The translations under genes and the position numbers were made by a program. Positions 12,401-64,000 of a stretch of 64,000 nt of DNA are shown here, one piece after another. The notes under the pieces were generated by a model, which searched no databases, had not been told where the DNA came from, and worked only from the letters and a program-made list of their open reading frames with translations. This DNA is from Tenrec ecaudatus (lineage: Eukaryota > Chordata > Mammalia > Afrosoricida > Tenrecidae). Position 1 is the stretch's first letter. Each line of letters starts with the position of its first letter. The DNA lies in NCBI RefSeq assembly GCF_050624435.1, contig NC_134539.1, forward strand, positions 141,518,025 to 141,582,024. Direction: 5' to 3'.

Positions 12401-15400
12401 TCTTTCTAGTTTGTCTTATTCTGTCAGCGCTTCTGAAACTGGCCTACCATGAGGGATCCAGTTAGTATTTGAAATATCGGTGGCAGAGTTTCCAGCATCA
12501 TAGCAACACACAAGCCACCATATACTCCTGAGGAAACAAAGGGTATGACTTTGTCCACACCTTACACCGAAGTCAGGATTCAATCCTATCTTAATTCTGC
12601 TGTTTAGTGTAGCAGAGAGCTCCCTCCACAATGGGATTGCAGCCAGAGACATAGAGTCCAGAATTATGATACATCACAGAAGGAATTATGGCTAGTAGGG
12701 ACATATTAATTTGTTACATCTCAGTGAGTTTCCCCCATCATTCATGTATAAAACAAAACCAAACTCACTGCCATTGAGTGGATTCCAATTCATAGTGACC
12801 CTGTGGGTCAGAGCATAACTTCCCATATGGGTTTCTGAGACTTTAAATCTTTACAAGAGTAGAAAGCCTGATTTTCCTCCTGTAGAGCCACTGGTGATTC
12901 ATACTACTAACCTTGTGACTGTCTGTCCAATGCATAACCCACTGTGCCACCAGGGGTCCTTGTCCTTCGAGCATATTCCCTTTAAATTTGTATTATGGAA
13001 ATTTTTATATCCTATTTCTTAGGCTTGACTTTAGATAATGTTGACTTTTTAAAAGAGTATTTGATTCATGTATAACTGCAGAAAAAGCATATTCTAACAG
13101 CATAAATGATGAAGTAAATAAAAACATGTGATCTCATAATTTAAGGATGTTTAAAAACATTGATCACCTATAGTATTATTAAACAGTATCATTGTTGCGG
13201 TTATTAAATCCCTCCTGTTATATTTTAAAATATTTTACATTCTTGGATTATTCTTATAATTCTTTCTAACTATCTACATTTCAAGGAGGAAAGTTTGACA
13301 TTACGGATATTAACTGTGTTCTTGAAAATATGGGGATAGACCTCATGCCTAAAGGAAGGTTGGAGCTGATGAATAATCCGCCAGTTGATTGTAAGCATTC
13401 AAATAACATTATAGAATTTAAAGGAATTTAGAGTTGTATACAGTCTTGTGTGAAAACTCCATTATTTACTCAGCAGTCAATAAAAAGATAGCAAAAAGAT
13501 TTAGGATGATTTGCTTATAGCTTTACTTTAAAAAGAAACCCCAATGATATAATTTGATGTTTAGTTTAGAAATAGTCTGTTGTCAATCAGGACAATGCAA
13601 CATGCATGTTTTACTTTTGAAACTATTGAGAAGGCTTCCCCGAGACTAAAAGGAGAGGTTTGTGAAAATAAATTCAATGAGAGTGAACTAAAAGAAGAAA
13701 AATGAAGAAATCTGGGAGAGACAGAGAAAAATAAGAGGTATGGAGCCAAGGAGTAGGTAGACAGGCTGAATTAAGGACTTTTCCCCAGCCCTTTATTGTT
13801 TGAGATTAAATCATCACTTCCTTAGGGTAAATGATAATTTTTGAAATGATTTTTAAAATGACTTAATGAATTTCCACATTATTTCTTGTGACCTTATTTT
13901 TGCTTTTCATCCAGTTAATCTGAAAACATTGCTGGATCGTGAGAAATCCCTTGAAGGTGAGTGAAATGCACACGGGACTGGCAGATCAATGAGAGATTGG
14001 CATGATTTGTATTATAATTTTCTAATCTTTAAATTGTGATTGTAGCCATGCTGTCTACTGATACCATGTGCCTATTTCTTCTGTGCTCGAGTTGATCTTA
14101 GCATACAATCTTGTGAGTTCCATCACAGAGGTAGTCCTATACTCTGGAGACTTTCCAGTTTGGAATAGGGGAGAAAACATCAGAGACTCCTCCAGTATCT
14201 TTTACAAAAATGGTAGGAACCAGAGCTGATCAGATATTTCTGTCACGTTAAAACATGCAGTTATGAAACTGAGAAAACAAAAGCAAACATTGCTTATTGA
14301 TGAAAAGTCTTAGATTTATTTGACATTATTGATACACTGAAAGACTTCATTGGGCCTTAGTTTTTATGCATTATGATAGCCATAATTCTCTGGGAAATTT
14401 GTTAATTTAATAATTAGATTTTGTTCACGTTCCTTTCTTTTCCCCAAGGTACAATTGTTGATGTTAGTAAACTGGGCACCGTTTTACAAAGCATGAAGAT
14501 TAACCTCACAGAAAAGGAAATTAATGACCTTAAGCAAAACATACTAGTTGATGGTAAGCTGTGAAGATATTATTTAAGTTTTTTGGAACAATCTGAGAAT
14601 ATGAGCTTCATAGGAGAACCCCAGAACATTTATTTTATCTTAATATTGTATTTAGTAAAACTTAGAAGAAAATCTACACTGGCTGTAAATTAATTTTGTC
14701 TCTTGATACTTTAAAAGAATTGAAGTTCAGCAATTTTCTCCACTGTCTAATATTTAGAATATGATCATGTTTTCTGTTAGACCCCTGAAGCTTTAGAGAG
14801 GGTATAGGAGAGTTTAGGAAGACGACATAAAATGGTAGAAACTTAAAACCAGAAATATCCAGAAAGTAAGCATTGCCCAAGATGGAATAGTATTAAAATG
14901 CCACCCTCCTCTTTTCTATTTACATAGACAAAGACAATAAAAGGGAACAAGTAGGAATGAGAGCTGTGGGGTATTACCCACATCATAGACATTGGCAGAT
15001 CTGCATAAGCCACCATGGGGGTCAGGGTCATAAAACATGTAGGCCAGACGGTGTGGAATTTACTCTTAACTTATGCAGTTGCCTTTATCCTGACATTATT
15101 GGACTTAACTCTGTGAATCAAGGGCTATTCCCAGGTCAATTGATAATCCCAAATAATTGATAATCTAGTTATACACCACATAGTGTTTTCTTGGTTGTAA
15201 TCTTTAGAGAAGCAGATTCCCAATACTTTGTTTTATGGTATGACTAGATGATTTCAGCAAACAAGTTTTCAATTAGTAATTGAGCACAAGCATATAAGGA
15301 ACTCTGGAAACTAGTACACCATCAAACCAAAACCCACCGCCAGACTAGCCTAAATACATACATCCTGGCTGCAACAAGTGGCTCAAGCATAGGAACAACT

Positions 15401-18400
15401 GTGAGGATGCTACAGGACCTGCAGTACTGCGTTCTGTTGTGCATAAGGTTGCTATGAGTCAGAAGTGATTGATGGCCCCTAGCAACAATAACCATGACGT
15501 GTGTGTGTGTGTGTGTGTGTGTGAGTGTGCACACTCTTGGAATCCCACATTCATATAGATGCAGCAAGAAGTAAAACCACTTTGCTCTTGGTTGTAACTA
15601 ATGACAGCTGTACCAAATATCAGTGACACATTGAGAAGGTAGATTCATACACAGTCATAAATATCGTATCAGCCTTCTCCCTTTACTCATTTACATTCAC
15701 TTCAGATTGACCCCAGTTGCACCCCGAGTCCTAGTCTAATCACCAAATATACATTCTCAGTTTACTATTTATTATTATTTATGGATATAGACTCTTCACC
15801 TCTCATGATAAAGTATGTTCTAATCTAGAGGCTTTGTGGAGTCCAAAGATTGAGGAATCTGTATGATTAGTCTTCCTTCTCAGAATTTTATCTAGTCCAT
15901 CAATTTTCTATGCACCATGAAAGATCTTTCTGTACCTACTTAATCATGTGACCAGGAATGTTGATGAGCAGTCCTTTCCATTATTGGAAGAGTTGCTACC
16001 CTGTCCTGCGGTGTCCCTGTGAGTCAGAGTTGACTTGGTGGCAGTTTGCTTTTTTTCATTAAAAGCTATAGGATCACTGGCACTACTGCCAGCCTTTCAG
16101 TAGTGAGGCAGCCTATGAGCTTCGGTGATGCCGTTTTCTTTGATAGCACTTTATCATCCTAAGAATAAAGGCTCCTAAGAGTTAATCGTATAGATATTTC
16201 CAGATTGACCTGAATTCATTTGATTCACAGTCCATTTACCTATTTAGCCATGTTCTAGTTTTGTAAGTTTTTATCATTATGTCTAAGTAATGTTTTATTT
16301 TACAGATAATGGAAAGATTGAGCTCAGTAAGTTAATGGACACTGTAACAGAAGTTATAGGTTAGTGAAAAGTTGAAGGCAATCATTCTTTGTCATTCTAC
16401 CTGTTTATTGATTTAAAATACCTAGAGTTAAAGTTTAAATTATACATTTTGGCAATAAAACATCAGGACATTGTTTTGTTAATAAATTGTTACTCTCCAG
16501 ATTATTTTCTACTTATATATTTTATTAGGAACATATTTAAATAAACCATAATCTTGGTCAACATTTTAAATAGTTTTATAAGTCTAAAGATACACTTTCA
16601 GAATAAAGAGAAATCCAAGTAACTTTGTTATAGATATTATTAGGATTAACAAAAATTTCTTATCTATCTACATTTTCAATTTTTAAAGGAAGAAATATTG
16701 CTGTCAGTGACCTGGAAAATGTTCTAGAAAACATGGGGATAGAGTTAACAGATAAGGAACAAGTCAAGCTAATGACAGATATACCAGTTGATGGTAAGAA
16801 TTTTACGTGACAAGTTAGCCTTTAATGCTTTTATGATTGTGCACAGTTTGTGAAACTTTAAACTTTTTATACATAAAAGGCTTTCTAAAAGTATAATTAC
16901 TAAGTTACCAAAAATTATACTCTATGAATTAAATCTAAGCTTTGTTATTTAATTTTTAGTTTGAGATTGTTAGCTTCTACAATTTATCAATCTGCCAAGA
17001 AAACAAAGCACTCCCGAGCATAGTGTGAGAGTATCCTTCATATTAATCTGGGAGATATGAGGACATAACAGTGGTAGAAGTTTACCAGGAGGCAAGAAAA
17101 AAAGAAATTAGAGAAAGAGCAAAATAATAAAGTCAGAAGTGAGTGTTTCAGCATGAAAGCGTGCCAGCGCTGGATAACAATGACTCACTATGTTACTATG
17201 CGTATCTTATCCCTTCCCCTATTTAAAAATGCATCAGCATGTAACTTGGAATTGTTCTGTACCTCATCGTAAAGTCTGATTTTCTGAGATTATACTGTTA
17301 ATGTATAATCCAGTTCATTTGCATATCACTTGGTCTGATTTATATCTTTCTCCAGCTAATGGAAAGATCTCTAAGAATAGACTGATGGATGTTTTCAAGT
17401 CTCTTAAAGGTGAGAATTACAGTGAAAAGCGATATAGATATGAGATCTACATGATTTATCTTCATACTATTTCCTGAGGATTTGATTGTGAATCCTCTGC
17501 CTTTTGTATGTGCACATGTGCTATATGAACACTTCTTTTCTGCTCCACTGAATTGTTGACTCTCCTTGTATCAATGTCACCGTTAGCTACCAGAATTTTT
17601 TAGTAGTCTTAATTTTTTTATTAGAACTTTCAGAAATATACAAAAGTAGAAAGAATAATATAATGAACTCACATATAATTAAAACCAAGATTTAACAATT
17701 ATGAGGATTTTGCCATACTCCTTTTTTTACTGAAATAGTTTAAAGTAAATCCTATTTCTACACATTGAAGTAAAGACTAGAGACCTTTTTATAGAACCAC
17801 AATGCCATTATCACACAAGAAGACTTAAAATAACCCCTCGGTATCATTGGGTGTCTTGTATAGTTTCAGGTTTCCCCAGATGTCACTACATAGTTTCATG
17901 TTTTTTTTTCAAATAATTAACCAACACGACTTGCAAAAACAAACAAAAAAAGAACACATTGCCATTGAGCCCCTGCGGGAAAGCAGTATTTTTTTCCTCT
18001 TCAAGAGTGACTGGTGTGTTTGAGCTGCTGACCTGTGGTGAGCAGCCCACCAGTAACCCACTAGGCCACCAGGTTTTTTTGGTTAAGAGCTCACACACTG
18101 TCTCTGTTATAACACTTAAATATTATTTAATCTACTGAGCTTCTTCCTGCCTCCTCTTTTAACAGATCTTTGATTTATTTTTTTAAAACACTTTATTAGG
18201 GGCTCATACAACTCTCATCACAATCCATACATATACATACATCAATTGTATAAAGTACATCTGTACATTCTTTGCCCTAATCATTTTTTTTCTTTTTTTA
18301 CATTTTATTAGGGGCTCATACAACTCTTATCACAATCCACACATATACAGACATCAATTGTATAAAGCACATCCGTACATACTTTGCCCTAATCACTCTC

Positions 18401-21400
18401 AAAGCATTTGCTCTCCACTTAAGCCCTCTGCATCAGGTCCTCTTTTTTTTCCCCTCCCTCCCCGCTCCCCCATCCCTCATGAGCCCTTGATAATCCACAG
18501 ATTGTTATTTTGTCATATCTTGCCCTATCTGGAGTCTCTCTTCCACCCTTGCTCTGCCGTCCATCTCCCAGGGAGGAGGTCACATGTGGATCCTTGTAAT
18601 CAGTTCCCCCTTTCCAACCCACTCACTCTCCACTCTCCCAGCATCGCCCCTCATACCCCTCAGATCTTTGATTTATTAAGGAAAATGTTTTAGTTGCTAG
18701 TTGTCTATAGAACTTGCCACTGTCTGCATTTTAAAATTTCCCATTTATTTGGTTTCTCTCCATTGTATCTTCTTTAAACCATAAGTTAACTCTAATACCT
18801 TACTAATTTTCAAGTCCAACATTTTTGACAAGTACATTTCATAGTCGATTCTGTGTGGTTCATATTACATTCCCTCAGAAAACACAGACCTATTTTTATC
18901 TTTTTTAATGGCTATCCATTTGTCCCCAGACTATTTACTTAAAAATTTCCTCAATTCAAGGCATCATTCTAGATATATACTTGATTTTCATATGGTCTTA
19001 CCTACTTTTAGAATTTATATTTCATTCCTTTGGTTTGTTTATGCATGCATTTTCACTAAATTATATTAATTATAAAAGCTTTATAGATTTTTAATATAGG
19101 TAGATTTCAACACACAATTTTCTTCTCCAGATCTGGGTGTGCTTTATGAAGATGTATTTTATGCGTGACTTTTACTAGTAGGGCTTTTGTATGTTCTGTT
19201 TTCATCCTACATTTGCTGTGAAACACCTTCCTAGTAAACACATCGACCTCTTAGCATTTAGAAACAATGTGGGTGGTCAAAGGACATATCCCAGGAACTT
19301 GCTTGCTGCCATCATGCCAAGGTAAAATCTATACATGGTGAAGAAATATATAGGCATGTTCCTCATTTGCTTCTCTTTTTTTTCCAAGGAGGGACTACTC
19401 ATGTCAATAACATAGAGACAATTTTGCAAAACACAGGAATGAATCTTACAGAAAGTGAAATTAATGATTTGATACACAATCTTCCACTTGATGGTAAGTA
19501 TTTAAAACACATTTGACCTGCTTGGGACTTCCCAAGAATATGGGATTCTACAGAAGAATCTCTGAAAACTCTTATTTATCATTAATAAGATAGAAAATAT
19601 TAAAAATTATTCCATCTACAAGTAAAATACTTCAATCTCTTGACATTTTCAGCAACTTTATTTCAGTTGAGAGAGTGGCCACGACCACTATCAGACCTGG
19701 ACAGGTTCGCAGCCTGATAACCAACCCCTAGGTAGGAAAGAGGTTACATAAGAAACATTAACATAGGGAAATTGAAACACATTAGAGAGCAATGAGTGTA
19801 GCCAAAGTGGAAAATTTTCCAAATGAACAAACATACGACTTGAATGTATGGAATGCCTCAATTCCAAGGCTCCCTGCTTTTGCATCTACTTACACACTCA
19901 TACCTGAGCTTGATTCCAGGATCCAAAGTCTAGTTTCCAGACTTTTAACCCCCCTTGATGGGCACAAGACATGCTGAAATTTCATGAATGCTAATTTAGG
20001 GCTAAACCCAAACCCAAATCAAATGAGCAAAAGTAAAATATCTTAACCTGGAAGCATTCCAGTGGGGCTAGGAAGTGTCTGTCTGAAATATTTTCTGACC
20101 ATCTTATAATCGATGATCAATCAGTAATTGTTCATTAAGGTGACGTACTTCCATCAATTCATAGCATTGGCACCATTCTCTAACATACATCTTTGTCAGC
20201 TTATTCTCCAATTTTCAGTGCTTTCATTCTACGAGAAATCATATGTAGATGGCCTCCATTCTCTTATTTTCTTTGCTTGAAATGATATAATCATTGGGAA
20301 CCGTGAATCTAGGTGCCAGAGACTATTTCTTTTTTAGCTCTAAAGGTCTGTCTGAAGTTATGACAGAACTGCCAGTCTTTTCATATTGGGGTTATCTTTT
20401 AGTCTTATCAGTTCTTTCTTCATTTTTAAGTAACAATTTAAGATCAACAAAGGCAAATGATAAATATCATTAAATAAAAATATATGTGAAATAAAAGAGA
20501 CATTGAGGAATGATTAAGACTCTTTGCTCTTCAATCATAATTTGAAAATTTAAAATAGTGTTTATTGGTGATTTGTCCAACTAAGGAGTTAACTTTGGGG
20601 TCTCATGTGAAATGAATCTTCCTGAAGGGCTAAGTCCCAGACCCATAGCCATAGTTATATATGCTGGAACAAGAAGGCCTTAAGCCTTGGATCCACATTT
20701 AAGTTGAAGCTTTTCTCAGAATGTATTTGTCAGCATATAGATGTGACAATACTGGTATGGGGAAGGTTTCGCTGAAATATGACCCAAGGAAGCATATACC
20801 CAAATTAAACAGCTCCCTGTACATCTAAAGGAAGTCTTAGAGGTATAATGGTTACGTGTTGGGCTGCAGTCCACATGATGTTTGTAATTGTTAATTCAAA
20901 TTTGATGAACACCACAAACTTTTGAATTAAGCAACAGTGACAACTTTCAGGGTTTGTAGAAATCCAAAAGTTCCTGGAATATTTTGGCTAGTTTTTTCCA
21001 TTTCATTTTCCATAAACTTTTTGAAGCCCCTTGCATGTGCTATCTGGAATATAGGAGATAATTCTGTTCTTTTACTTCCATTTTCCCGTTATTGCCTCTA
21101 GACCTGTAACTAGGCTTAAGTCACATGAATCCCTAAAGATGAAGTCCAAATGGCGACCAGGGAGAAGTGTGCTTGCTATACTACTAAAGAACTTCTGGAT
21201 TTTTCAAATGTTTACACACAGAAACTTGGAGAAGGTGCACAGGAATGGTTCTTCAGGGTGTGGAATCATGGCTGGTGCGAGGAACATAAGCTTGACTCAG
21301 TCTGAGTGTATTGAGATGTGTCCACTAAGTATAGATTCTTCATTCAATGTCCACTCTGCCTCCCTTATGATGTTACACTCTCTCTGCGAAGTTTGGTGCC

Positions 21401-21477
21401 CAGGCTGTCTTCCACAAGCTGCGACTAGCAAGCTCCAGATCTGTGTGGTTTGTTAGAGTCACAGAGATACGACACCA

Positions 21478-21528
<51 letters not shown>

Positions 21529-45500: not shown

Positions 45501-48500
45501 TGTGTTGCTTTATCACATGGTATAGATGCTGCATATTCAGGGTAAAGGGAATAATTGTTTCCATGAGGGCTGATAACACAGAATTCTCATGCTATTGGCT
45601 GAACGCTGGACAGCCACATGGCTTTGTTTTTTTTTTTCATAGTTGGCAAGTTTTTTAGTCATAATAAAAATGTTTCCCCCACTACATTTCTTTCTTTTAA
45701 AGGAGGAGAAGTGAATGTGAATGATATGGAGCAAAATCTGAGGTTAATTGGGATAGAGCTCACAGATAAGGAATGCTTGGACCTCCAGAAGAAGCTGCAG
45801 GTTGATGGTGAGCATTAACTATACCTGTGTAGTGCTCAGGGGCTATTTATTGAGAATGGCATAAATATTTCTCTTTGGTAGTTTTTCATTTAAGAGGATT
45901 TTAGAATAAATTGTACAGTTTTACTTTAAGAAATAATCTGTGTCCTCTCAAGTATAGAACCATCTGCCTTTTTAGTCACTAACTTGCTATCAGGGCAGGG
46001 AAGTACCTATTCTTACATTTTGTTTTGTTTCATCTCAGTGATAGGACCTCCTCAAAAGTAAGCAGGGAGCTATGGAGAGTACTTAAGCAAAAACAAACTC
46101 AGTGCCTTCGAGTCGTGCCCACTCACAGTGGCCCTATGGGACAGGGTAGAACCGTCCCTGTGAGTTTCTGAGGCTAACGATGAGGAGAACGTCCTGTCTT
46201 TCCCCCACTGAGCAACTAGTGGTTTCAAACTGTGACTACGTAGTTAGCAGCCCAGAGTTTGATCACTATGCCCCAGGGTCCCTGTGGGTAGGACCAGAAG
46301 GGGAATCAAGCGCCTAAAGAGAAGAAGAAGCGTGCTGCAGATAGTAGAATGCCAGCGGCAATTCCTTTCTGGCAGGAAGCCACATCCAGAACATTCTCCA
46401 CTTTGTTATTGTTTTTCTTTTGTGATTTGAAAATCAGTTAGATCTTTTCTAGGTTAGTTATGCTTGTCTTCCTGAAATTAAGGCTTTAGTATTGTCTTAC
46501 TTCAGCTCTCATTGGTGTGGCCTGATTTGTTTCTTTATTACAGATGATGGAAAAGTATTTCAGAATAGGTTAATGGATGGTGTGAAAACCTTTAAAGGTG
46601 AGTGAGAAATAGAAGACAAGGAAAATGAATCTTAAATCTCCATGTTGTACATTCTCTGAAATGTAGAACCATGTACCATCATGTTTGTGCATGCATAAAA
46701 TCATACTGTTTCTCAAGGATCATATTTTTGTATCTAGGGGTTTCAAAATGCTTGCGGAAAATTGTATAATCTTTTAATTACACTTTCCAAGAACTTTCAT
46801 AAACTTCATTTTTATTTTACAAAACAAAAACAAACTCCAGTACCATTCTTTAACCTTAAGATTTAAGTGGAAAACCACATGAAACAGGATCTTAGTGAAG
46901 AGGGGGGGGAAGGGGGGAAAAGAAAAAGAAAAATGAGGAACTGAAAAGAGAATGATGAGGTCCATGAATGTATAAGTGTGCTTTACACAATTGATATATG
47001 TGTGGATTGTGGTAAGAGTTGTATGAGCCCCAGTAAAATTATTAAAAAATCTATCTTATCAGCAAAGATAAGTGAAAGGAACGTTATAAAGATTTAGACT
47101 CTGAGTCCACGGAGGAAAAGTTTTTGAAATCTCAGGACTATTTCATGACGTGTACGTGACTATGTCCACATGGATTCTAGGTCAGATTTAGGCCTTTTGC
47201 TTAGGCTATTAACCCACAAGGCAACAACTTAACAAATAGTACAGGATTGTAATAACTAGAGTGTAAGAGAGCTCATTCTCATTTCATGTTTTGTTAGATT
47301 ATTACTTATAAAATCCTTCTTAAAATGAACTTGAGTCTCTGCTCCAATCTCCCATATTCTCAACAATATGGTTGTATTTGCTTGTTTGTTTGTTTTGGGT
47401 CTTCCGATGCCTGTTACCCAGTCCTGTTGACACCTCATGATGGCATAGGTCAGTGGTCCTCAACCTTCCTAAGGCCGCAACCCTTTAATACACTTCCTCA
47501 TGTGGTGGTGACCCCCCAAGCATAAAGTTATTTTTGTTGCTACTTCATAACTGTAGTTTTGCTACTGTTATGAATCAGGCGACCCTGTGAAAGGGTCGTT
47601 CAACCCCCAAAGGGGTCGCGACCCACTGGTTGAGAACCGCGGGCATAGGGTGCTATGCTTTTTCCATGTGGGCTTGTTGATTCTCTGATAGATGGTCACT
47701 TGTTTAACTTCAAGCCTTTAATACCCCAGGTGCTACATCTTTTGATGTAGTGGAATATGTGAAATCATAATATATAATTTATCAATGATCTATTAGGGTG
47801 GGAGGAGGGGCAAGGCAGGTGAAAAAAGAGGAGCTGATACCAAGGGCTCAAGTAGAAAATGTTTTGGAAAATGATGATGGCAACAAATGATGATTTGCAA
47901 ATATACTTGATACAATTGATAGATGGAATGCTGTAAGAGTTGTAAGAGCCCACAATAAAATGATTTAAAAATAAGTAATAAAAGGATGCACATTACACAG
48001 GGGACAAATAATCCTTTCAAAATGAAATTCTGAGAAGAAAGTCTAAATAGGTTCCCATAAACTTTTAAAATTTTATATCTTAAATACAATATTTCCTCCT
48101 CCTCACAGGTATTAAGTCAATTTTTGTGCATCTAATAACAACATGAAAATTACTCAAGTGCAAGGAAAAGAGATAAACATAATATTAGGCAGTGATTTTA
48201 ATGTAACTTTCTCAGTAATTAATAAGACAACCAGTCATAGGTTATTAAAGTCGACAAAGATTTAAACAGTATGGTTTAAAATCTTGAACTAATGTACTTA
48301 ACATAAATCCTGTACTCAGTAACTACAGAGTGAATATCCTTTCTAGGCACATAATTGAGCATATGGAAAAATCCAAGCCAGTTGCCATCAAGCTGATCTA
48401 ACTCATGGGAGAGCCCGTATAGTTAGAGCAGCATTGTACTCAGCAGCCTTTCCAATGGCTATGATTGTTCCAAAGTGTCTGCTCAGTAAGTTTGGTGGTC

Positions 48501-51500
48501 AGCTGACTTGCCAGATATTTTATTTCATTCCTGTGCTGATATATGTTCTGGGTTTGCTGAGGGATCTTCATGTAGGTCAGGGTGTGCCTTTAACCCTCTG
48601 ACAGTAAATAGCCTGGTTTTCTGCTTTCTTGTTCAGCCAAATGTGAGTGAATTCAGGTCTCTAAGATCTTTCTAAGCATATGCCTTCATAAATAAGTGAC
48701 CACATCACTCATACAACATTCACAAAAATGGTAAAACTCAAACAATATGCAGTGATGGAAAGGATATGTTAAAATAGAAATTCTCAGGCACTGCTGGTAG
48801 GAAAAGAAATTGGCTCAAAACTTGCAGAGACAATTAGGCAAAATCTCAAGACGTTGAAAATGTGCATATTCTACTTTAATAATTCTGCTGCCAAGTGTAT
48901 AGCAGGGACGCTCTTGACCACAACCACGCATAAATCATAATGCACCTTTTAATGCTGTGTTTAATGGCAAATAATTAGAAATAACCTGAATGTTCATTTA
49001 TGTGTTCAGGGTCATGAATTGGTTCCTACTTAGAGCCCAGGCTGGATAAATTCATGGTGACTTAACACAATAATGGAAGAGTTAACAATAATTCAAAGGA
49101 ATGACACATGAATGAATTGAATGAAGCATGTTTTGACCTGGATAAATCTTAAGAAAAAACTGAGTTAAAATGTAAATGGGAAAAAGAAACTCACATTGTG
49201 ATATTTTTATTTATATAAACTTTTAAATTATATAAAATCATTTCATATATGCATAAAAACATGCCTGGGCACTATCTATACCATAGTTGAGACCAACTTC
49301 TCCGGGGAAAGTGAGAGACAACTAGGAATAAAGAGAGATTCCAGAGCCTTATCCACGAATCTACAACATTTATTCCTGAAATTTGAGTAAACAGAGATCA
49401 TAGCAGTTTTGTATCTCTGTAATAGTTTATACCCTAAAAAGTGCAGGAATTTGTCTACCCCCCCTCACTACTGCACTTGACTAGTCAAAAAAAAAAAAAG
49501 TGAAGGAATAATGAGAAGACATTACCTAGATTTCCTCAGAGGAAAGACAGCCATCAGTTCATTCAAGAAACAAACACACAAAAGAACAACGTTACTTTCG
49601 GCATCAATATAAGACTTTAATTTTCTGTTTTTGAAAATGGCCTAGGATTATATTGACTGTTCCCCCAAACTGGGAAGGAATTTTAATTCTAATCATAGAT
49701 CTAATCGTTTCTGCACAACATACCACACTGGACCTTATTCTTAAGGTGAGAATGACATCCACCAGGCACAGTTGTTTGTTCATAGCTGTTGTCATATCTT
49801 ACAGTTGTTCAGTTTTGCTGAGATTATTTTCTTTTCCTCAAGTGGGTGTTGTTGATGTCACCAAACTGGACACTGTTTTGGAAAACATGGGACTGAAACT
49901 CGACGAAGTAGAAAATAAAGATTTGAAAAAGAACCTGCCTGTGGACGGTGAGCATTTAAACCTGTGAGCTGCTCAGGACAACCTGAGACTGTGAGCTTCT
50001 GTGGAATCTCCTCTGAAAGTTTCATTTGCACACAGGGGCCTTTTACAAAAATCTAACAATGAATGCAGAGCAAAAGTAAGGTTATATCCTCGCTTGTCCA
50101 TATTAATAATATCCATTAGCACCTCCTTTAGTTTTGTACCCAACAGAGTGTTGAAACGGTGGTAGTACCAGTTGAAAAGTGGGTGAAATGAGACAGCGGT
50201 CGGTATAAGTCATGAAAAAAAAATTATCAAGGGGAGGGTGGGGGAAGAAAGGTGAAAAATGAGGAGCTGATGCCAGGGGCTCAAGTAGAAAGAAAATGTT
50301 TTGAAAAAGATGACAACATATGTACCGATGTGTTTGACACATTGGGTAATATGTATGGATTGTGATAAAAGCTGTAAGAGCCCCCAGTAATTAAAAAAAA
50401 ACATTTTAAAGGCAAAAAACGTGACGGGGAAAAACAAACACTTGGGGGCAAAGTAGCATGAAACACAGGTGGAGGGAGGTTACAGGGGAAACTATAGGAA
50501 GAGCAATAGCAATGTCAAGATGAGACATGATCCCCATGAGGAGTGCATTCCATAGGCATGTGTGACAGTGTTCACCCACTTTCTCAGAGTCTAGGGCCTT
50601 CTAGTATCCACGCCAGGATGTGTGGGATGGTCCCCTACTTATAAAGCTACATAACATCCCAATTCCCAGGCCAGACTCCATGAACCAATGGCTTAAACCC
50701 CCGTTGATAAACTAGAAACAAACTCTGAAATGTGGGTCAAGCTGAATTAGGACTGAAATGCAGTGTGCCAATGAGAACATGCTAATGGAGAGAAGCCAGT
50801 CACAAAGGCCACATATTGCATGATTCCATTTCTCTGAGAGGCCAGATTGAGTACATCTATTAAAGGAATAGATTAGTGACCGGCTAGGGCAGTAGATGAG
50901 ACAAAGGAGTCATGACTGCAAGCTAATGGATATGAAGTTTCCAGTTGAAGGACAAAGTAGTTCTAAAATTGAGTTGTGGTACAAGCAATCTAAAATTTAA
51001 TCGAATGTTATATAAATATATGTAAATAATCTCTTTAAATATTAATAATATCCTGCTCTATTATGTTAGATTCAGATGAAAATGAGAAAAATCTCTTTCA
51101 CCCTAGATTTAATGACAATGTAGACAATTGATACTTTTTTCCTAGCAATTCATCTAGTTACACATGCTCAGTGAAACCACCTAAAACTATTAGTAACTGT
51201 AGAAAATAATGTCATGGGTTAGAAGTAAAAGAATTTCTCAATAGCTTGAAACTTATATTTAAACAGTTGTTTGCAACAGGGTAAAAATGAAGAATGTATT
51301 TTGCACACAAAAAGTTTTAGTTGTGTTCCATTCAATAAGGGAAAATAAATAAAAAATTCTAGTATACCCCATTTTCAGAGTTAACGCTACTTTTGTTATA
51401 TTATGTCATTTTGATAACTTTTAAAACATTTATATAGATTTTTTTTACTTTTTAAATGACCTCTAGCTAATTACTGGAGTAGTGATTAATTTTATTATAT

Positions 51501-54500
51501 AGAACAAAGGCATAAGAATGTAGGAAAATATCAGGAACTATTCTGATCTCATTACATAAGATTATTTTTTTAAAAATCCAAGTAGAAACATTGGTATGTC
51601 TTAGCCTACTGCCATTAGGAAAAAAGCCTCTTTTTTTCCCCACAGTGCAGCTAGTGGGTTTGAACCCGACCTTGCAATTTGCAGCCCAGTGTCTAACCAC
51701 TGCACCAGTAATTGCATAGAGTAATTGTAAATCCTGATCCCAGTGCTCAAGGTAAAGAGTGGAGAGTGTTCTAAGGCATAGCATTGCATAAGGCAGGCCC
51801 CATAGAAAAGGTGACAATTTTGTTTCTTAGCATTAACTTCCAGAGGCATCATTTCCTATATCACAATGAATTAAAAACAAAAATCAGCACTGCTGTTGAT
51901 TCTATTCCAACGCACAGCACCCCTAGACAAAGCAAACCTGTCACTTCATTGACATATCTTTTCCTACCGTGTCTGGTGGTTCACACTGCCGACCTTTTGG
52001 TTAGCATTGGAGCTCTTAGCCACGGTGCTCCCAGAGTTCCATATGAATCAAAACAGTAGCAATTACAATCTAAACGTTCTAATGGGACAGGGTGAGAGCA
52101 GGGAGCATTTTTGAGAACATAAATTTCGCTTGTTTTTCATTTCATATTTGTCATGCGTGTCATTGTAAAATATGTATTTGATTTATGTTTTTCTTAACAG
52201 ATAATAGAAAAGTTAAATCGAAATTTTTGTTAGATGTGATGCAAACATTTACTGGTGAGTGGACATGTATTATAAAATCATATTAAGTTAAAAATTGTCA
52301 ATTTACCTAATCTGTTACATTGTTATTTTATTACTTTATCATCAAATACTTCCTTTTAAAGTCTTATGCTGGACTTTACCTTACATAATTAAATTTGAAA
52401 TATTCAAACACAAAATATGCAATTAAAATTCTATATGAAAGGTGTGGAAATATTTTAAATAAATTAATAATAGGATTTATTTCACCAATATCCAGATATT
52501 ATCACATTTTAATAAGCATAGTAAATAGCAAGCTAAAGTTTAACAGTGCTAAAATATTAGCACCACTAATATGAAGGAAAATAAATGCACAATTTAACAC
52601 TCATGTCCCAACTATATTACTCTAATCTCCTGGCCAGTCTTCAAAACAAAATTTTCTGTGTTGTATCACATTCATCACCAACAGAGTCTCTTGTTTATGG
52701 AATTGAGGAACAAAGATCTGTGCGTGGTTTCCCTATATTTCTGCGAAGTGTCATGTTCTCCCTGTTCACTGCTGCAGATGATATAGCAGACCATGAAAAT
52801 TTTATTATTTGGAATTATTACTTTGTTCCAACAACTGCCAAGCACTGACATTTCTATCTTTTTTAAAGGGAAAAAGGTTGATGTCAATGATCTGCTGAAT
52901 GTGCTGGGAGACATGGGGATTGAACTCACAGAAGGAGAGCTTGCGACACTGCTAGAAACACTGCCAATAGATGGTAAGTCCTATATGCCTCTGGGGCCTC
53001 CCAGGGAGCTTGCTCTTTAAGTTGTTGCAAGCAATTCTCAGATGTTGTTGCTTCAATTATTTCTTCTATGAAGTGCTGAAATGGCCAGGGAAGACACAGT
53101 CACTGTCAGAAAGATGTGACTGAAGATCACCAAGCTCTTCAACCTTGAATGTTGCCATCAGAGCTGATGCAGATGAAGTAATCTTACCTTTTCAGATAGC
53201 TGAGAGGTCTAAATGCCATGAAGGCAGAAGGTGGGAACTACTGAGAGAAAAGTAAGAGGAAGGCAGAGAAGTCAGAGGTGAAGGGACACCAAGGAGTAGT
53301 GGTTGTCTCTGAACAGTAGAGTCTTCCTTGCAGTTTTCTCAGTCCCCAAACACTGCAGAGGTTTCTTTGTTTTTCTCACTTAGACAAGCCTCTTTTTCCT
53401 TCGATGGTTTTTATTTCATGGGAAGGCTGGCCAGGTTTTCCTAGGAAAGCATAAGAAACTTTTCACCCAGCTGTTCAATGACTTTATGCCTGTCTACATT
53501 CTTTTTCTCATGATAATAAACTGTGCTTTTTCTCATAGGTGATGGAAAAGTTTTTCTGAAAAGATTATTGGAAGGCTTGATGTCTATCAATGGTATGTAA
53601 CGCATCAAGTTAGCATAAAAATCTAAAAATAATCAACATGTACATTATATTATTAGACTTGGCTTGTGTCAATATTCCAATATTTAGACACACATTTATT
53701 ACACAGCTATTTACTGGAATCACCCATATATGTGTAGTGGACATTCCACCATTTCAGAGGTAACATATGAGCTAGAGCTAATGTTGCTGAAGGAAGGAGT
53801 CTAAGATGCACTGAAAGCATTTGCCAAAAACAAGACTCCAGGAATTGCTGGAATACCAAATCAAATGTTTCAACAAGCTGAAGAAACTCTGGAAGCACGC
53901 TCTTGTCTATGCTAGTAAATTTGGAATAGTTATTTGGCCAGCTGACCAACTGACTGGAAAAGGTCCATATTTGTGCTTATTCCAAAGAAAGGTGAATCAA
54001 CAGAACGCTCAAACTTTAGAACAATATCCCTTCTGTCACATGCAAGTAAAGTTTTGCTGAAGATCCTCAAATGATGCTTGCAGCAGTTTATTGACAGGGA
54101 GCTGCCAGAAGTTCAGGCCAGATTCAGAAGAGGACGTGCAGCAGGGAGATCACTGTTGATGTCAGATGGGTCTTGATTCAAAGCAAAAAATACCAGAAAG
54201 ATGTTTACTTGTGCCTTACTGACTATGCCTTGTCATTCGACTACGTGGATTATAATACACTATGGATAATCGTGAGACAAATGGGAATCCCAGAACGCGT
54301 CATTGTGCTCATACAGAACTTGTACATGGATCAAGAGGCAGGTGAGCAAATGGAACAAGGCAATAATGTATGATTTAAAATAGAGAAAGGTTGTGCTACA
54401 GGGTTGTATCCTCCCATCATACTTATTCAATAATGTGCTGAGGAAATCACCAAATGAACTGGATTATATGATGAAGAATGTGGCATCAAGATTGAAGGAA

Positions 54501-57165
54501 GGCTTATTAATAATCTGCAATATTCTAATGACATAATCTCGCTTACTGAAAGTGAGGATTTAGGGCTGATGAAGAGCAAGGATTACAGCCTTCAGTGTGG
54601 ATTATGAATCAATGTAAAGAAAACCAAATTTTTCATAACTGGACCGATAGGGACATCTTGATGAATAGAGAAAAGGTAAGTCGTCAAGGATTTTGTATTG
54701 CTTGGATCCACCATCGATACTCATGGAGGCAGCAGAGATTCAAAACATGAAGTGTAGTAGGTAAATCTGCTGCATAACACCTCTTTAGAGCAGCGATTCT
54801 CAACCTGTGGGTCATGACCCCTTGGGGGGGGCGGTCGAATGACTCTTTCACAGGGGTCACCCGATTCATACCAGTAGCAAAATTACAGTTACGAAGTACC
54901 AACGAAAATAATTTTATGGTTGGGGGACCACAACATGAGGAACTGTAGGAAGGTCAAGAAGCACTGCTTTAGGGTATGGAGAAGAAAAGGATGTTACTTT
55001 GAGGGTAAGGTGCACCTGACCCAAGACATCGTGTTTTCAATATGTTGGACTGCTAAGTACAAGCTCAGCACTTTGAAACCACCAGTCTTTCTTCGGGAGA
55101 AAAACAAGACTTTTTACTCCCATAAAACTTTGGTGGTGTAACTCCCAAAAAGAGTTACAGTTTCATAAACAAATTGGGGGGGTCACACTAAGTCAGCTTT
55201 GACTCAATGGCAGTGAGAGAGAAATAGTTACAGTCTGGTTAACCCAGAGAGGCAGTTCTGCCTTGTCTTATAGGGTTGCTATGAGTTGACATTGACTCAA
55301 TAGCATTCAGAGGTTTGTTTGTTTTTTCATATGCATATGAAAGCTGGATATTGAATAAAGAAGACCTAAGAAGAATTGTTGCATTTGAATTGTGACACTG
55401 GTGAAGTATATTGAAAGTACCAAAAGGACAAACAAATCTGTTTGGAAGAAGTACTGCCAGAGTGCTCCTTAGAGGAAAGGACGGCAAGACTTCATCTTTC
55501 TTACTTTGGGCATGTTGTTATGAGAGACTAGACCCTGGAGAAGGATGTCATGCCTGGTAAAGGGGAGGGGCAGCGAAAGAGAGGAAGGCCCTCAGGAGAT
55601 GGACGGACACAGTGGCTGCAACAGTGGGCTCAGGCATGGGAATAATTGTGAGGATGGCGCAGGACCGGGCAGTGTCGTATCTGTTGTGCATAGGATTGCT
55701 GTGGGTCAGAACTAACTCAATGGCACCTTACAACAACAATCTTTGTAAAGAATCACTATTTCTAACAGGCAACCTATAGGATACATTGAAATCTTCTTAT
55801 ATACAGCAAGTGATATAGAGTACATTAACCAGTATTCTATGAATTTTCCCCAAACTGTATGAATTATTTTATTTCAAGGCTCTTTATTTTCTGAATGTTC
55901 TTTTCTGATGACCCATTATTTATTTTTAATGTAGGGTGATAAATAGGCTCAGACTAAGCTGTCTGCTTCTTTCTCCTCCCGTAATCCCTTCGAACAATAG
56001 AAGAGAAACAATTAGAGAGGGAAGAAGAAAGAATACAAGTTTACAGCTTAAGATGTAGTTTTTGAAAGGAATCACCCATAGGTGGCAGATTGTCTCTTGG
56101 TTTTCCAAACTTATTAATTAACTCTGACTCAAATAGAACTGCCCCATAGGGTTTCCATCACTGAAAATCTTTATAGAAATGAACTGCCTCGTCTCTCTCC
56201 CACTGAGCAGCTGGGGGTCCCAATGGTTGTCCTTTTGTATGGCCTTTTGAGGGCCTAACCATTGTGCCACCAACGTCTCTTTCCTCACTTTTTAGTCAGC
56301 AACATGTGTTATTCAGAGCATGCTGAGCTACTATTAGATATAATTATAATAGCTATTATTAGAACTATTTTTTAATATTTAAGATTTAAATTTAATATTT
56401 AATTTTTTTACATGTAGAAATAAAATGGAACATTAGTACGATGTGTGAATTATCATTCTATGTTCCTTTGATTATGTTTTGGGGACAGTCCTGCATAAAA
56501 TTCTTTTCATCTGTCTCCTTTATGCCCCATGGGGACCTATCTACCTATCTATATTTTGGCCCTCTGTTATGACAGTTTATTATTGCTCAATACTGCATAT
56601 AGTAATCTTAGACACACAATCACAGTCCTCTAAGTGATACTTCGATTGAAAAAACATTTTTCTCTAATTCAACATTATTGTAGGTGATTTGCCGAGTCAA
56701 CCTTGTATGCTATTCATGCGTACAAATAAGTGATGCAACTACATTTTTATCATAATAAAATGCATCTAAGATAATATTTATGTCTGAATGTATAACTATT
56801 TTGAAATAATGGGTTTTTTTTCCCTTCATGGTTATTCTCTGCTTCGCTCTTAAGGAGGAATGGTTAGCGTCAACAATCTAGACACTGTTCTGAAAAACCT
56901 GGAGGTCAAACTCACAGAAAAAGAGCGAGATAGTCTGACAGAAAACCTGCCACTTAAAGGTGAGCCTTGTTGATGCTATGGTCTTACAAAGGGATTCATA
57001 CTAGGGGTACCGCCCAGAACCGGAATTGTGCTGGGTGGAGCAGCACTTGCGTCATAAGCATTTTTCCTGCTGGGCAAGCATCAAGCAACCCACTCTGAGT
57101 TAGCTCACTCAATGTCATCACCTGGGAAGTGAATTTTTTCATAAAAGCAGTTTCACTCAAACCTC

Positions 57166-57207
<42 letters not shown>

Positions 57208-60200
57208 TGTTCAATTTAAAACTGTGCAGCTGTGAAATTTGGTATTTTGCTTTGGAAAAATGCCTCAGAAACTGTTGTGATATTGAACACAGCTTACAGG
57301 ACAGCGCTATGGGAAAAACTCAAGTGTACACGTGGTTTTCATGTTTCAAAAAAGGTGAACTGCCATGAAAATAATATTCTAACTTATCAAGGGTTCATCA
57401 GGGATGGAGGGGGAAGAAATGGGGAGCTGATATCAGGGGCTCAAGTGGAAGAGAATGCTTTGAAAAAGATGGTGATGCCATATATGCAAATGTGCTTGAC
57501 ACACTAGATGAATGTATGGATTATGATAAGAGATGTGAGAGCACCCAATCAAAGTGAGAAGAGGGGGGAAAAAAGGTGAAATGTTGATTGATGACAAACT
57601 TTGTTCTGGACATCAGTCAACTTCCTGAATGGATGAAAATGTTGACTCATAGTACATTTTGGAGTTCATTCCACCAGGTCAAACTGTTAACCAAGCTTTT
57701 TATTTAAAGGTTCTGAAAAGATTATGTAACAATATGTAACAAAAAAAGGCCTGATTTGTGGCATACAGGGGACTGGTTTTGACACCAAGACAATGCGCCT
57801 ACTCAAGCAGCCATCTCAGTGTGCCAGTTTTGGGCAAAAAAATAGCATGCCTCTCTTTTTTCACCTGACTCACCTGACCTCACTCCGTGCAACTTCTTTT
57901 TGTTTCCATGTATGAAGAAGAACATATGAGAACAGTGACCTGATGATGTAGAAAAGGTGATGAAAAAAATGAGAGGCATTGTTAGCAATCCTAACAGATG
58001 AGTTTGAAAAATGTTTCCAAGAAAGGAATCACAGATTTGACAAATGTATTAAGTGTAATGGAGAATACTTGGAAAATGATAAGATTGTTTTGTAAAATTA
58101 AATACATAGCTTTTGAAAAAAGTTCCATTGGGGGGGGTACCCCATTGTATTGTTAGACTTGTATTAGAGGATACCAATAATTTTGTTTAAATGGAGTTAA
58201 GTAGTAGTTAAGATGATATAAGCTTCTTTTAAAAAAGAAATTTAAAACATAAAGTGACTACAATCAAGTATGTTGGTTGGTGAGTAGTCACACTTCTTGA
58301 ATAAGATAAAGATACATGTTTTTTTCATCTTGGGTTCCTTTAGCATTTCAATTACTTATATCTAACTGATGATATAGAAAGGAGAGTATAAGGTAGGAGG
58401 TCTATTGTTACTACTACAATTCCTTTTTTGAGAATTCATTGTGTTGCTTTCCAGCAAGGGGTAGGGGAAGCCAGGAAAAGGATTCTGACTGGGCAACCAT
58501 TACAATGTACAACTCTCCATCCTGGGAGAAAACTAGGAATGCTGGGGAACTTTGCCAAAATGAAATGATAGCTCAGTTGTAATAATAGAGCGTTTCTTTT
58601 TTATTTTCTTCCAGAAATCAATAGTCATGTCTTCTGTGGTTTTATCATTGCTAAAAAATAGACACCATCCTTAAATTATGAAATGAACACTCAAATACCC
58701 AAGCCCATTTCCATCCAGTGGATTCTGACTTGTAGAGACCCCGTGTAGGCCTTCTGAGACTGTAAATCAAGACAGGAGTAGGTAGTCTCATTTCTCTGCC
58801 TCAGACCTCATCAATTTTAGCCTCCAACCTTGTGGTTAGTGGTTCAATGCTTACCCAATAGGGCCATCAAAGCTCCTTTGAAATGGACATGGAGCAGAAT
58901 GAAAGTTTCGGGAAATGGAATAAACAATGGTGGAAGTTCCATATTGCTAATACCCTTACTAGATACTTATGCCTCAACAATAACCAAACCAAAAATTCAC
59001 TGCCATCAAGGTGATTCCAACTTGTATTGACTATAGGACAGAGTAGGTGGGTTTCCAAGATTGTAAATATTTTGTAAAGTCTCATCTTCCCCCTGAGGAG
59101 TAACTGGTGGTTTAGAACTGCTTACCTTGAGGTTAGCAGTCCAGTGCATAACCCATATGCCACCAGGGCTTCCATACTATTCTGAAATATCCATTACACA
59201 TTTCACTTTTATATAACTCCCAGAGAACGATTATCTAGTCTTCTATTTTCAGTTATTATCTCTTTGATGAAAAAGTTCCATCTACTGGCAGCAATAATAT
59301 TCTCCTGTAGCATGTCCTCTTCTGCATCTGGCTTGAATTTCTGACAGCTCCTTGTTGATGTACTACTGCAACCATTTTTAAATTATCTTTGAGGTAATTT
59401 TACTTGCATGTGCTAATAATGATACTGTTCAATAATTTCTACATTGTGCTAGGTTACCTTTTTTTTAAATAGGCAAATATATAGATCTCTTCCAATTGAT
59501 TGGCCAAGTAGTTGTCTTCCAAATTTCTTGGCATAGACTAGTGTGTGCTTACAGTGCTACCTACATCAGTTTTTTAAAACATTTCGATTGGTAGTCCATC
59601 AATTCCTGGAACCTTGTTTTCCACTAAATCCTTCAGTGCAACTTGGGTTTTTCCTTCAATACCTCGGTTCTGCATCATATGCTACCTCTTAAAATGTGAG
59701 ACTGTTGTTCACTTATTTTTGGCACAGTGAGCCCTTGCATTCTTTCCATCTTCCTTTGAAGATGCTTCTTGCATCATGTCATATTTAGACCATAGAATCC
59801 TTCAATATTGTCTGAGGCTTAGATTTTTTCTTCAGTTTGTTCTTGAAACATGCTGAATGTTTTCTTCCTTTTGGTTTCCTAATTCCAGGTGTTGGAACAT
59901 TTCATATTACTGCTTTCCTTTGTCTTCTTGAGCTGCCCTTTAAATTTTCCATTCAGCTCTTTACTCATCATTTCTTACACTTTCAAAGGCACGTTTCAGA
60001 GACTCTCATGATGGCTGCTTTTTCTCCTGTATGTTTCACGTCCTTTTGTTTTCTTCATGTATGACGTTCTTGATGCCATTCCATAGCTTGTCGGGTCTTC
60101 TGGCACTAATTTTCAATGCATCAAATCCGTTCTTGAGATGGTCTCTAAATTCTGGTTGAATATATTCAAAGTCATAGTTTAGGTCTTATGGATTTGTTTT

Positions 60201-62848: not shown

Positions 62849-62979
62849 GTAAGTATTTAAAATATCAAAATGATCATAATAAGAAACATACATTTAAAAA
62901 TCATGTTTGTGAATATTTATATAATATTCCACTTTGATGCCACCAAAATACTCTTAAATAATTTTCCCAAATCCAAATA

Positions 62980-62980
<1 letters not shown>

Positions 62981-63062
<82 letters not shown>
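62981..63062. repeat. Compound (CT)n(AC)n microsatellite
   Basis: About 38 bp of CT repeat passing directly into about 44 bp of AC repeat, 133 bp downstream of the last exon. Confidence 0.95.
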
Positions 63063-63064
<2 letters not shown>

Positions 63065-64000
63065 TCCTAATATAAAGAGATATATTCTAGCTTGTAGCAT
63101 TAGTTACCTAGGAACTTATGGACTGAAATGGGAGGGAGAAGAAGAGAAATTTTAAAATGAAGGAAAATTAGACTTTAAAACAACACTTGTATATCATATA
63201 ATTAATTTATTCATTTATGTAAACTTACGTAAATTACATATAAACTACTTTTAAAGGAAATGAATGATTCCTTCTCATCTTAAAATATTCATTAACTATG
63301 TATTTTAAGGTTGGAATTTAGCTGTTTATTTACAAATTTGGACCTCAAGATTAAGAAATTTGTCATCCTTGAGTCTATTGTGAAGAAATTGTATAAAGTA
63401 TCAGAAACAGGAAATTATCAGACTGAAACTTGTAAAAAGGAAATGTTTGATGAATGAGTTCATTGAGTGTTTATTCAACAGGAACTGTTTGCAAACAGGC
63501 AGCATCCAAGCGGACAGTAGCAAGGTCTCTACCAAGCAGCTCAGAGTTTTTGAAGGTAGCGAAGGGCTGCTCAGTGAGGCAGTCATGGTGATTGACTCGT
63601 AGGCATGTCCGTAACCAGAGGATAATTTTACAATTCAGGAGGTTTTTTTAAAATCACTGGATCCATAGTTATACTTGTCTGATTGAATCTAACATGGCGA
63701 ATCTCAAACATTTTTAAATGCCAGGTTCTTTTTGGAAGCTTTCATGGATAGAAGAACACTCTGATAAAGTCCCTATTTTTAGTCAAAGTTTATAGTTGGC
63801 AATAATGGCCATTTTGATTTATTTGTTCTCAGAAAGATTTTGACTGAGCATGAGTGGCCATTAATTTTTAGTTAATATTTAACAAAGGAATTAAAAAAAC
63901 AGTACTGAAGTGTCAGAAGGTAGATGGCCAGCAACAATATTCTTAGGTTCCAACAATCGAATGGATGAGCTATGTTGAATGGTAACATCCCTTTAAAAAA
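63063..64000. other. Intron sequence without recognised repeat or exon
   Basis: A short B exon is expected next in the pattern. I looked for its DGK/NRLMD signature here and did not find it, so it presumably lies beyond the window. Confidence 0.4.

Follow-up and report, generated by a model that had tools for sequence, protein, structure and literature searches.

The window studied here, 64,000 nt from the genome of the tenrec Tenrec ecaudatus (NCBI RefSeq assembly GCF_050624435.1, contig NC_134539.1, positions 141,518,025 to 141,582,024 of the forward strand), is, judging from sequence comparison, the middle of the mammalian EFCAB3/EFCAB13 gene (mouse Gm11639). It carries an array of alternating long and short exons, and we consider it likely that the encoded rod grew in layers, from EF-hand units through nested copying together with the gain and loss of whole blocks. 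Several nested layers of duplication are still legible here in DNA, introns and protein, a kind of copying history that is often blurred elsewhere.

A query with one exon of the window returned 29 mammalian proteins of great length. Many carry the name EFCAB3, EFCAB13 or Gm11639, the others being unnamed, and the best match was a manatee protein of 4216 residues. Units 0-10 of the window correspond in order to units 0, 1 and 4-12 of manatee 'EFCAB13' (59-79% identity per unit), an ordered orthology that marks the two as the same gene; the window aligns to manatee residues 1636-2305 with one gap of 106 residues, and a tenrec protein is 72% identical to manatee in another part. Mouse Gm11639 is Efcab3-like; gorilla and human are reported to have this gene divided into EFCAB3 and EFCAB13 (PMC8662591). 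In the portions of the literature covered by our search, the gene and its EF-hand superfamily are known, and the gene is treated as a newly annotated gene, as a brain-size gene or, for EFCAB3, as a sperm axoneme protein. Those portions, which concern the gene, EFCAB6 and giant EF-hand repeats, contain no description that we could find of the A/B or four-unit repeats presented below, or of their nested organization.

Two alternating classes of exons and units

Direct reading of the sequence gives 21 exons between 13286 and 62848, each with an AG acceptor and a GT donor, open, divisible by three in length and in phase 1. Long exons have 105 nt and short exons 54 nt, except for 13915 (42 nt) and 41342 (114 nt). 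A repeat unit has 53 residues, encoded by a long exon together with a short one (105 + 54 nt), and two units make 106. The first-pass annotation of the window, made from the letters alone, had listed the 20 exons from 13915 on and sorted them into long A and B (lA, lB) and short A and B (sA, sB); its list is right for every exon in borders, open frame and length. We call lA plus sB unit A, and lB plus sA unit B; the subclasses A1, A2, B1 and B2 are taken up in the next section. The exons of the main run, with the evidence for each, are:

13286-13390, forward, long exon A1 (sequence reading, class profiles, DNA tree)
13915-13956, forward, short exon of an A unit (sB), 12 nt shorter, with the EF loop partly lost (sequence reading, manatee alignment)
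14449-14553, forward, long exon B1 (sequence reading, class profiles, DNA tree)
16306-16359, forward, short exon of B2 type (sA), forming a hybrid unit with 14449 (profiles, manatee alignment)
16689-16793, forward, long exon, A1 by position (the profile says A2 by a margin of 1.5; the DNA tree joins it to 62744, 61/72)
17356-17409, forward, short exon A1 (sB; profiles, DNA tree)
19389-19493, forward, long exon B1 (profiles, DNA tree)
30359-30412, forward, short exon B1 (sA; profiles, DNA tree)
32628-32732, forward, long exon A2 (profiles, DNA tree)
33271-33324, forward, short exon A2 (sB; profiles, DNA tree)
41342-41455, forward, long exon B2, 114 nt (sequence reading, profiles, DNA tree)
44199-44252, forward, short exon B2 (sA; profiles, DNA tree)
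45703-45807, forward, long exon A1 (profiles, DNA tree)
46544-46597, forward, short exon A1 (sB; profiles, DNA tree)
49843-49947, forward, long exon B1 (profiles, DNA tree, intron homology)
52201-52254, forward, short exon B1 (sA; profiles, DNA tree, intron homology)
52869-52973, forward, long exon A2 (profiles, DNA tree, intron homology)
53539-53592, forward, short exon, A2 by position (the profile says A1 by a margin of 3.0; the DNA tree joins it to 33271, 61/67)
56855-56959, forward, long exon B2 (profiles, DNA tree, intron homology)
62113-62166, forward, short exon B2 (sA; profiles, DNA tree, intron homology)
62744-62848, forward, long exon A1 (profiles, DNA tree, intron homology)

A profile scan of both strands that required splice borders and the usual lengths recovered 19 of these 21 exons, missing 13915 and 41342 for their odd lengths, and added four exons upstream (347, 3423, 6979 and 7583); it gave no match on the minus strand of the window. 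Without the border requirement, the short profile matched the minus strand weakly at three places (8.6-11.1 bits), none of them preceded by AG.

The strict alternation of A and B from 13915 on, as first proposed, is borne out by DNA and peptide trees and by permutation tests. In DNA trees of the window exons (11 long and nine of the ten short exons, the 42-nt exon 13915 being left out here and in the other short-exon tests), A and B are separated by a single change, with support of 89/89 for the long and 93/98 for the short exons, and 2-5 of 500 shuffles match this separation; both exon kinds thus show the separate clades that had been anticipated. The peptide tree of the long exons gives the same split (89/94). 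Exons of the same length are more alike at even than at odd distances (permutation, P = 0.0024 for long and P = 0.0036 for short exons), and so are whole units (about 44% vs 36% identity, P = 0.005); neighbouring exons are thus not each other's closest relatives. In a tree that joins the window with 49 manatee units (an unbroken run from a total of 66, used also in the plain-identity test), a 30/30 split has support of 100/99, all 11 window units lie on the side predicted by their position, and the position labels misfit only for five manatee units beyond a slip at units 43/44. A tree of 51 units of the tenrec genome, from the window and 200 kb downstream, again separates A and B by one change (100/97).

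The alternation is seen in other mammals as well. By plain unit identity (units scoring below 8 bits dropped), even distances exceed odd ones at P < 0.05 in 12 of 15 arrays, the exceptions being Mastomys, cat and elephant seal. When units are scored with manatee-trained class profiles (units below 12 bits dropped), none of 500 shuffles reaches the observed A/B alternation in 21 of the 30 proteins examined. The array could be read as a plain two-exon repeat in which A and B arose by chance among few sequences, and the modest identity gap in the window and the three arrays without a significant even-odd effect would suit such a reading; however, the permutation tests, the window trees, the 51-unit tree, the result in 21 proteins and the cycle found downstream all speak against it, and we regard it as refuted.

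The bilby protein, which has 12 units, shows a strong two-unit periodicity, identity at distances 1-4 being 34, 63, 35 and 61%, and lacks a four-unit signal. In a tree with 32 of the 49 manatee units, whose bootstrap had not fully settled, its A units join the placental A clade and its B units the placental B clade (96/96). This suggests that A and B are older than the split between marsupials and placentals, one marsupial protein being a thin basis. Among the proteins tested, the four-unit cycle is seen in placentals only.

The four-unit cycle and the copying of whole blocks

In the manatee tree each class has two subclasses, A1 and A2 for the A units, B1 and B2 for the B units, some inner branches having low support. 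The order along the protein is A1-B1-A2-B2, a cycle of eight exons and 212 residues. The 106-residue super-repeat of the first-pass annotation is therefore real as an A/B pair and incomplete, with a 212-residue level above it. Since the subclass profiles were trained on manatee, its own result of 48 of 49 is no test. In 16 of the 30 proteins, manatee counted among them, at most 13 of 500 subclass shuffles reach the observed number of correct steps; these include mouse (35/39), Dipodomys (32/36), tiger (24/27), armadillo (13/13) and the window itself (8/8). Echinops has 6/6 correct steps, but 34 of 500 shuffles are as good. Taken exon by exon from 16689 to 62744, the eight-exon cycle fits 15 of 17 window exons, the misfits being 16689 (margin 1.5) and 53539 (margin 3.0). 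The DNA tree, which involves no training, pairs 32628 with 52869 (88/89) and 41342 with 56855 (89/93); a third pair, 30359 and 52201, has weaker support (75/81).

The cycle continues beyond the window. We fetched 250 kb of downstream sequence and scanned the window plus the first 200 kb (264 kb) for exons; 108 exons pass the bordered open-exon scan, and long and short alternate in 103 of the 107 neighbour pairs. Of the 83 exon steps on the downstream side, 67 are exact in the eight-exon cycle (mean of 2000 subclass shuffles 40.5, maximum 55) and 81 hold the A/B order; in the same scan the corresponding numbers for the window are 14 and 19 of 20 steps. The 51-unit tree requires 7 changes for the four position classes; shuffling of subclasses within A and within B gives 18.4 on average and never fewer than 13. 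Here units before 16689 are excluded and labels are restarted by hand at a slip at 218525. This slip (216410/218525 on the window scale) consists of two consecutive B units, as at manatee units 43/44, and probably reflects the old loss of one A unit at about 216.4-218.5 kb. On this scale the array reaches 308.8 kb or more.

Introns carry the class signal as well. In the window, long-to-short introns measure 524, 562, 538, 736 and 565 nt after lA, and 1752, 10865, 2743, 2253 and 5153 nt after lB (permutation, P = 0.008), whereas short-to-long introns differ less between classes (P = 0.09). Over the 264 kb, the median length is 3451 nt for introns inside B units, as against 778, 964 and 979 nt for the other kinds (Kruskal-Wallis, P = 2.6×10−5). 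Within the window, comparison of 300-nt intron flanks found only DNA shared between neighbouring flanks and one short simple-repeat match. Comparison with the downstream sequence places the last part of the window in a larger duplication:

44199-64000, forward, part of a 16-exon (424-residue) tandem duplication, from intron homology with the sequence 16 exons on

The first copy runs to about 75 kb and the second from about 80.6 to 116 kb (window scale). Intron flanks are shared with the exon 16 places on for 14 of the 16 exons from 44199 to 74819 and in 15 of all 21 pairs tried, whereas controls eight places on share flanks in 1 of 16; the duplicate flanks are mostly colinear and about 60-87% identical. 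The proposal that the protein grew simply by 106-residue blocks was not upheld, given a cycle of 212 residues in many placentals and a duplication visible in intron DNA of 424. Between 52973 and 53539, intron identity with about 87.7-88.2 kb is about 85%, above most of the 16-exon copy. The units in this region resemble each other more than they resemble manatee; together with the high intron identity, this may be due to gene conversion.

One could suppose instead that units were copied singly and that selection pulled each toward the type demanded by its place, with no copying of blocks. The predicted alternation of A/B junctions (see below) makes such selection plausible; yet selection on the protein should not touch introns, whose lengths also track class, and the intron DNA indicates that the 16-exon block was copied whole. 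The base at acceptor position -4 also differs by class, being a purine in six of seven long A and none of five long B exons (P = 0.015), a post hoc test that excludes exons 347 and 3423 and gives P = 0.10 with them, so we give it little weight. On balance we find this single-unit copying unlikely.

Predicted structure, proposed growth of the rod and possible roles

AlphaFold models of a tenrec and of a bilby protein, which share the same 29 aligned proteins and are not independent, both predict strand-helix-helix-strand-helix for each 53-residue unit, with three helices. In these models the linker between helices alpha1 and alpha2 has a short strand in eight of nine A units and in none of eight B units, and helix alpha3 is longer in B (11-13 residues) than in A (9-10). 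The junctions of A and B are thus predicted to alternate in structure, and with the A and B clades this makes the pair of distinct half-units suggested at first a fair description of the structural unit, as far as models can tell.

Membership in the EF-hand superfamily is indicated by PF13499 (EF-hand_7) in relatives, by the predicted order of strands and helices and by matches to EF-hand lobes. In place of the four helices of an EF-hand pair each unit has three, which we read as a derived form on the models. One 53-residue unit superposes in the models on one lobe of calmodulin or myosin light chain, from which it differs by the absence of one helix, by the lack of calcium ligands at loop positions 1 and 12 and by its tandem arrangement. 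The unit looks like an EF-hand pair minus one helix and its calcium ligands. Longer pairs with a repeat of 72 residues persist at the N-terminus of relatives, and in the manatee protein EF-hand pairs spaced 72-73 residues adjoin the 53-residue array. Other Pfam matches (B5, DUF2267, DUF1722, SurA_N_2 and peptidase families) were taken as chance products of the repeated helical pattern; some exceed their curated cut-off on the whole protein as the repeats sum (B5 in manatee with 62 bits against 28.6), with at most one stretch passing alone. A Foldseek search of the PDB gave one match below 0.001, to a trypanosome doublet chain, with a TM score of 0.14 and an rmsd of 68 A; we regard this match as meaningless.

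A calcium sensor, with calcium bound in every unit and affinity adjusted through the alternation, would be in keeping with the Pfam label EF-hand_7 and with D, E or N at loop positions 3 and 5 in 41 and 36 of 49 manatee units. However, position 1 is D, E or N in none of the 49 manatee or 11 window units (P in 43 and 9, respectively). At position 12, 37 of 48 manatee units carry R or K; D, E or N occurs there in 4 of 48 and in none of nine window units. Given these residues, calcium binding by the units is unlikely, and we rate the sensor very improbable.

In the layered growth that we favour, the repeat region would encode a long rod of 53-residue units, each an EF-hand pair without its first helix, with alpha3 of one unit filling the place of the missing first helix in the next. 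A unit, that is, a long and a short exon with phase 1 introns, would first have been copied and have diverged into A and B, giving two alternating junctions; the A-B pair would then have been copied and have diverged into A1-B1-A2-B2; and whole blocks with their introns would have been copied in tandem, as in the 16-exon copy. Because the borders are in phase 1, whole blocks could be gained or lost without a break of the frame, as with the 106-residue block missing from the window. If the models are right, the product is probably a long helical rod that works independently of calcium, with junctions of two kinds in alternation and surfaces of four types. The exon classes, the cycle and the intron signals are observed directly; we infer the order of the layers in time, as well as the rod itself and its role as a scaffold that does not sense calcium. 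Such an array would represent a solenoid-like use of EF-hands without calcium and a system for the in-frame, whole-block growth of giant genes, and it raises the structural question of what requires a four-unit period.

Several observations weigh against this reading. The array is known here from genomic DNA and from the annotated proteins of relatives, not from transcripts, and with pTM values of 0.60 and 0.39 the models do not establish the overall shape of the rod. The cycle does not stand out in macaque (17/28 correct steps), orangutan (15/25), marmoset (9/15), Perognathus (3/12) and Tupaia (1/7), and likewise among the remaining proteins: pig 6/8, bilby 4/10, Marmota 1/3, chimpanzee 3/6, rhinoceros 3/5, Nycticebus 3/5 and two further manatee proteins 4/7 and 5/7. 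When units are compared by plain identity, the 212-residue effect is significant (P < 0.05) in only 4 of 15 arrays. The window is not among them, distances 4 and 2 both giving 44% there; the effect shows in trees and class profiles. The array becomes irregular after about 233 kb, where 7 of 16 deviant steps lie at or beyond this point. The 16-exon copy also gives a mixed signal as to its age. Both of its blocks occur in manatee too (units 8-15 and 16-23); for the whole block, copies within a species are closer than across species and a shared copy is rejected (AU test, P = 0.0036), whereas unit by unit five of eight favour closeness within species and three of eight a shared copy. The idea that the copy is older than the split from manatee was thus not upheld. 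Most of the signal favours copying in each line by itself or gene conversion, and it would suit either such independent copies or one shared copy that gene conversion altered afterwards.

Comparable nesting is known from giant muscle proteins. In titin, domains at equal super-repeat positions are reported to be most alike, and recursive duplication has been proposed (PMC10665226, PMC7109182). The 264-kb array likewise has its equal positions in successive blocks most alike, a pattern lacking in several relatives. As in the A-band of titin and in nebulin, small modules are ordered into super-repeats; the modules there are Ig/FnIII domains or the nebulin helix and here an EF-hand pair, the binding lattice here is hypothetical, and the cycle has four units where nebulin has seven. 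Ciliary doublets also contain long EF-hand proteins, among them EFCAB6, which is the best PDB sequence match of a tenrec array, a weak one (E = 7×10−6) with centrin and calmodulin close behind.

As for its role, the 438-residue C-terminal EFCAB3 is present in the sperm doublet structures 8otz, 9fqr and 9v10 (PDB). The giant manatee protein, which is without this C-terminal end, matches only calmodulin-type chains (E = 1×10−8). EFCAB3 is reported to lie beside TSSK6 and CFAP97D1 in sperm doublets and to disappear when TSSK6 is lost (PMC13066092, PMC11779644). The giant form might have a role along microtubules. Since loss of Efcab3-like is reported to enlarge the mouse brain (PMC8662591), other roles exist as well. 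As a long shot, giant EFCAB3/13 outside humans and gorillas might serve as a ruler along the sperm doublet. It would be anchored at the TSSK6-CFAP97D1 site by its C-terminal EFCAB3 end, with each 212-residue block meeting one step of the tubulin lattice, for which every 53-residue unit would have to cover about 2 nm. For nebulin on actin, a change of length by whole blocks has been proposed. Were the ruler real, gain or loss of blocks would shift its length by lattice steps, and the hominine gene split would have removed it.

A missing block, decayed exons and minor features

Compared with manatee EFCAB13, the window lacks one 106-residue block and holds two dead exons. The missing block comprises exactly 106 residues, namely the short exon of unit 1, the long and short exons of unit 2 and the long exon of unit 3, and it is the sole change of exactly this size that we found. 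Its site is between lB 14449 and sA 16306, in the intron 14553-16306 (1752 nt), where tblastn gave no convincing remnants of the block. The gap leaves the A/B order intact and breaks the 212-residue cycle. It also leaves a hybrid unit, the long exon 14449 being B1 (24 of 34 residues as in manatee unit 1) and the short exon 16306 being B2, which we take as the scar of the missing block. On these sequences the difference would most simply be explained by the loss of one four-exon block in the line of the window.

Upstream of 13286 the A/B order is broken, and no intact exon was found between lA 7583 and lA 13286. The features of this part are:

347-451, forward, long exon of unclear class (A1 by a margin of 0.9), from profile scans, upstream of the main run
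3423-3527, forward, long exon B1, resembling manatee GLKVDVHDLDTVL... (bordered scan, manatee comparison)
6979-7032, forward, short exon of a B unit (sA type; bordered scan)
7583-7684, forward, long exon A1, 102 nt (bordered scan)
8263-8298, forward, decayed short exon of an A unit (sB), GKICRNRLVDE followed by a stop, out of phase with the nearest AG
12231-12287, forward, decayed long B exon, RQVNVSNLDSILGGIEAS followed by a stop, with a one-base frame shift relative to its AG (12228-12229)

The first of the decayed exons is 81% identical to exon 17356 (E = 2×10−5). The tblastn match of the second is weak alone (E = 0.55 at best), and it was identified together with direct reading of the sequence. 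The annotated manatee protein also joins the counterparts of 7583 and 13286 directly, so the loss between these two exons seems shared or old.

These two dead exons, the loop loss in 13915 and the four-exon block missing relative to manatee could also be taken to mean that all the exons are remnants of a gene decaying in this species. Against such decay stand the 108 open bordered exons over 264 kb with 103 of 107 neighbours alternating, the apparent age of the upstream loss, and codon position 3, which differs most between exons of the same class (0.48 vs 0.38 and 0.28 in long A exons); we hold general decay to be quite improbable.

Directly past the last exon of the window lies a (CT)n(CA)n microsatellite (62980-63063). 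Interspersed repeats were seen at 530-700, 3780-4200 and 18170-18680; we take them, presumably, to be of a type that occurs in afrotherian genomes.
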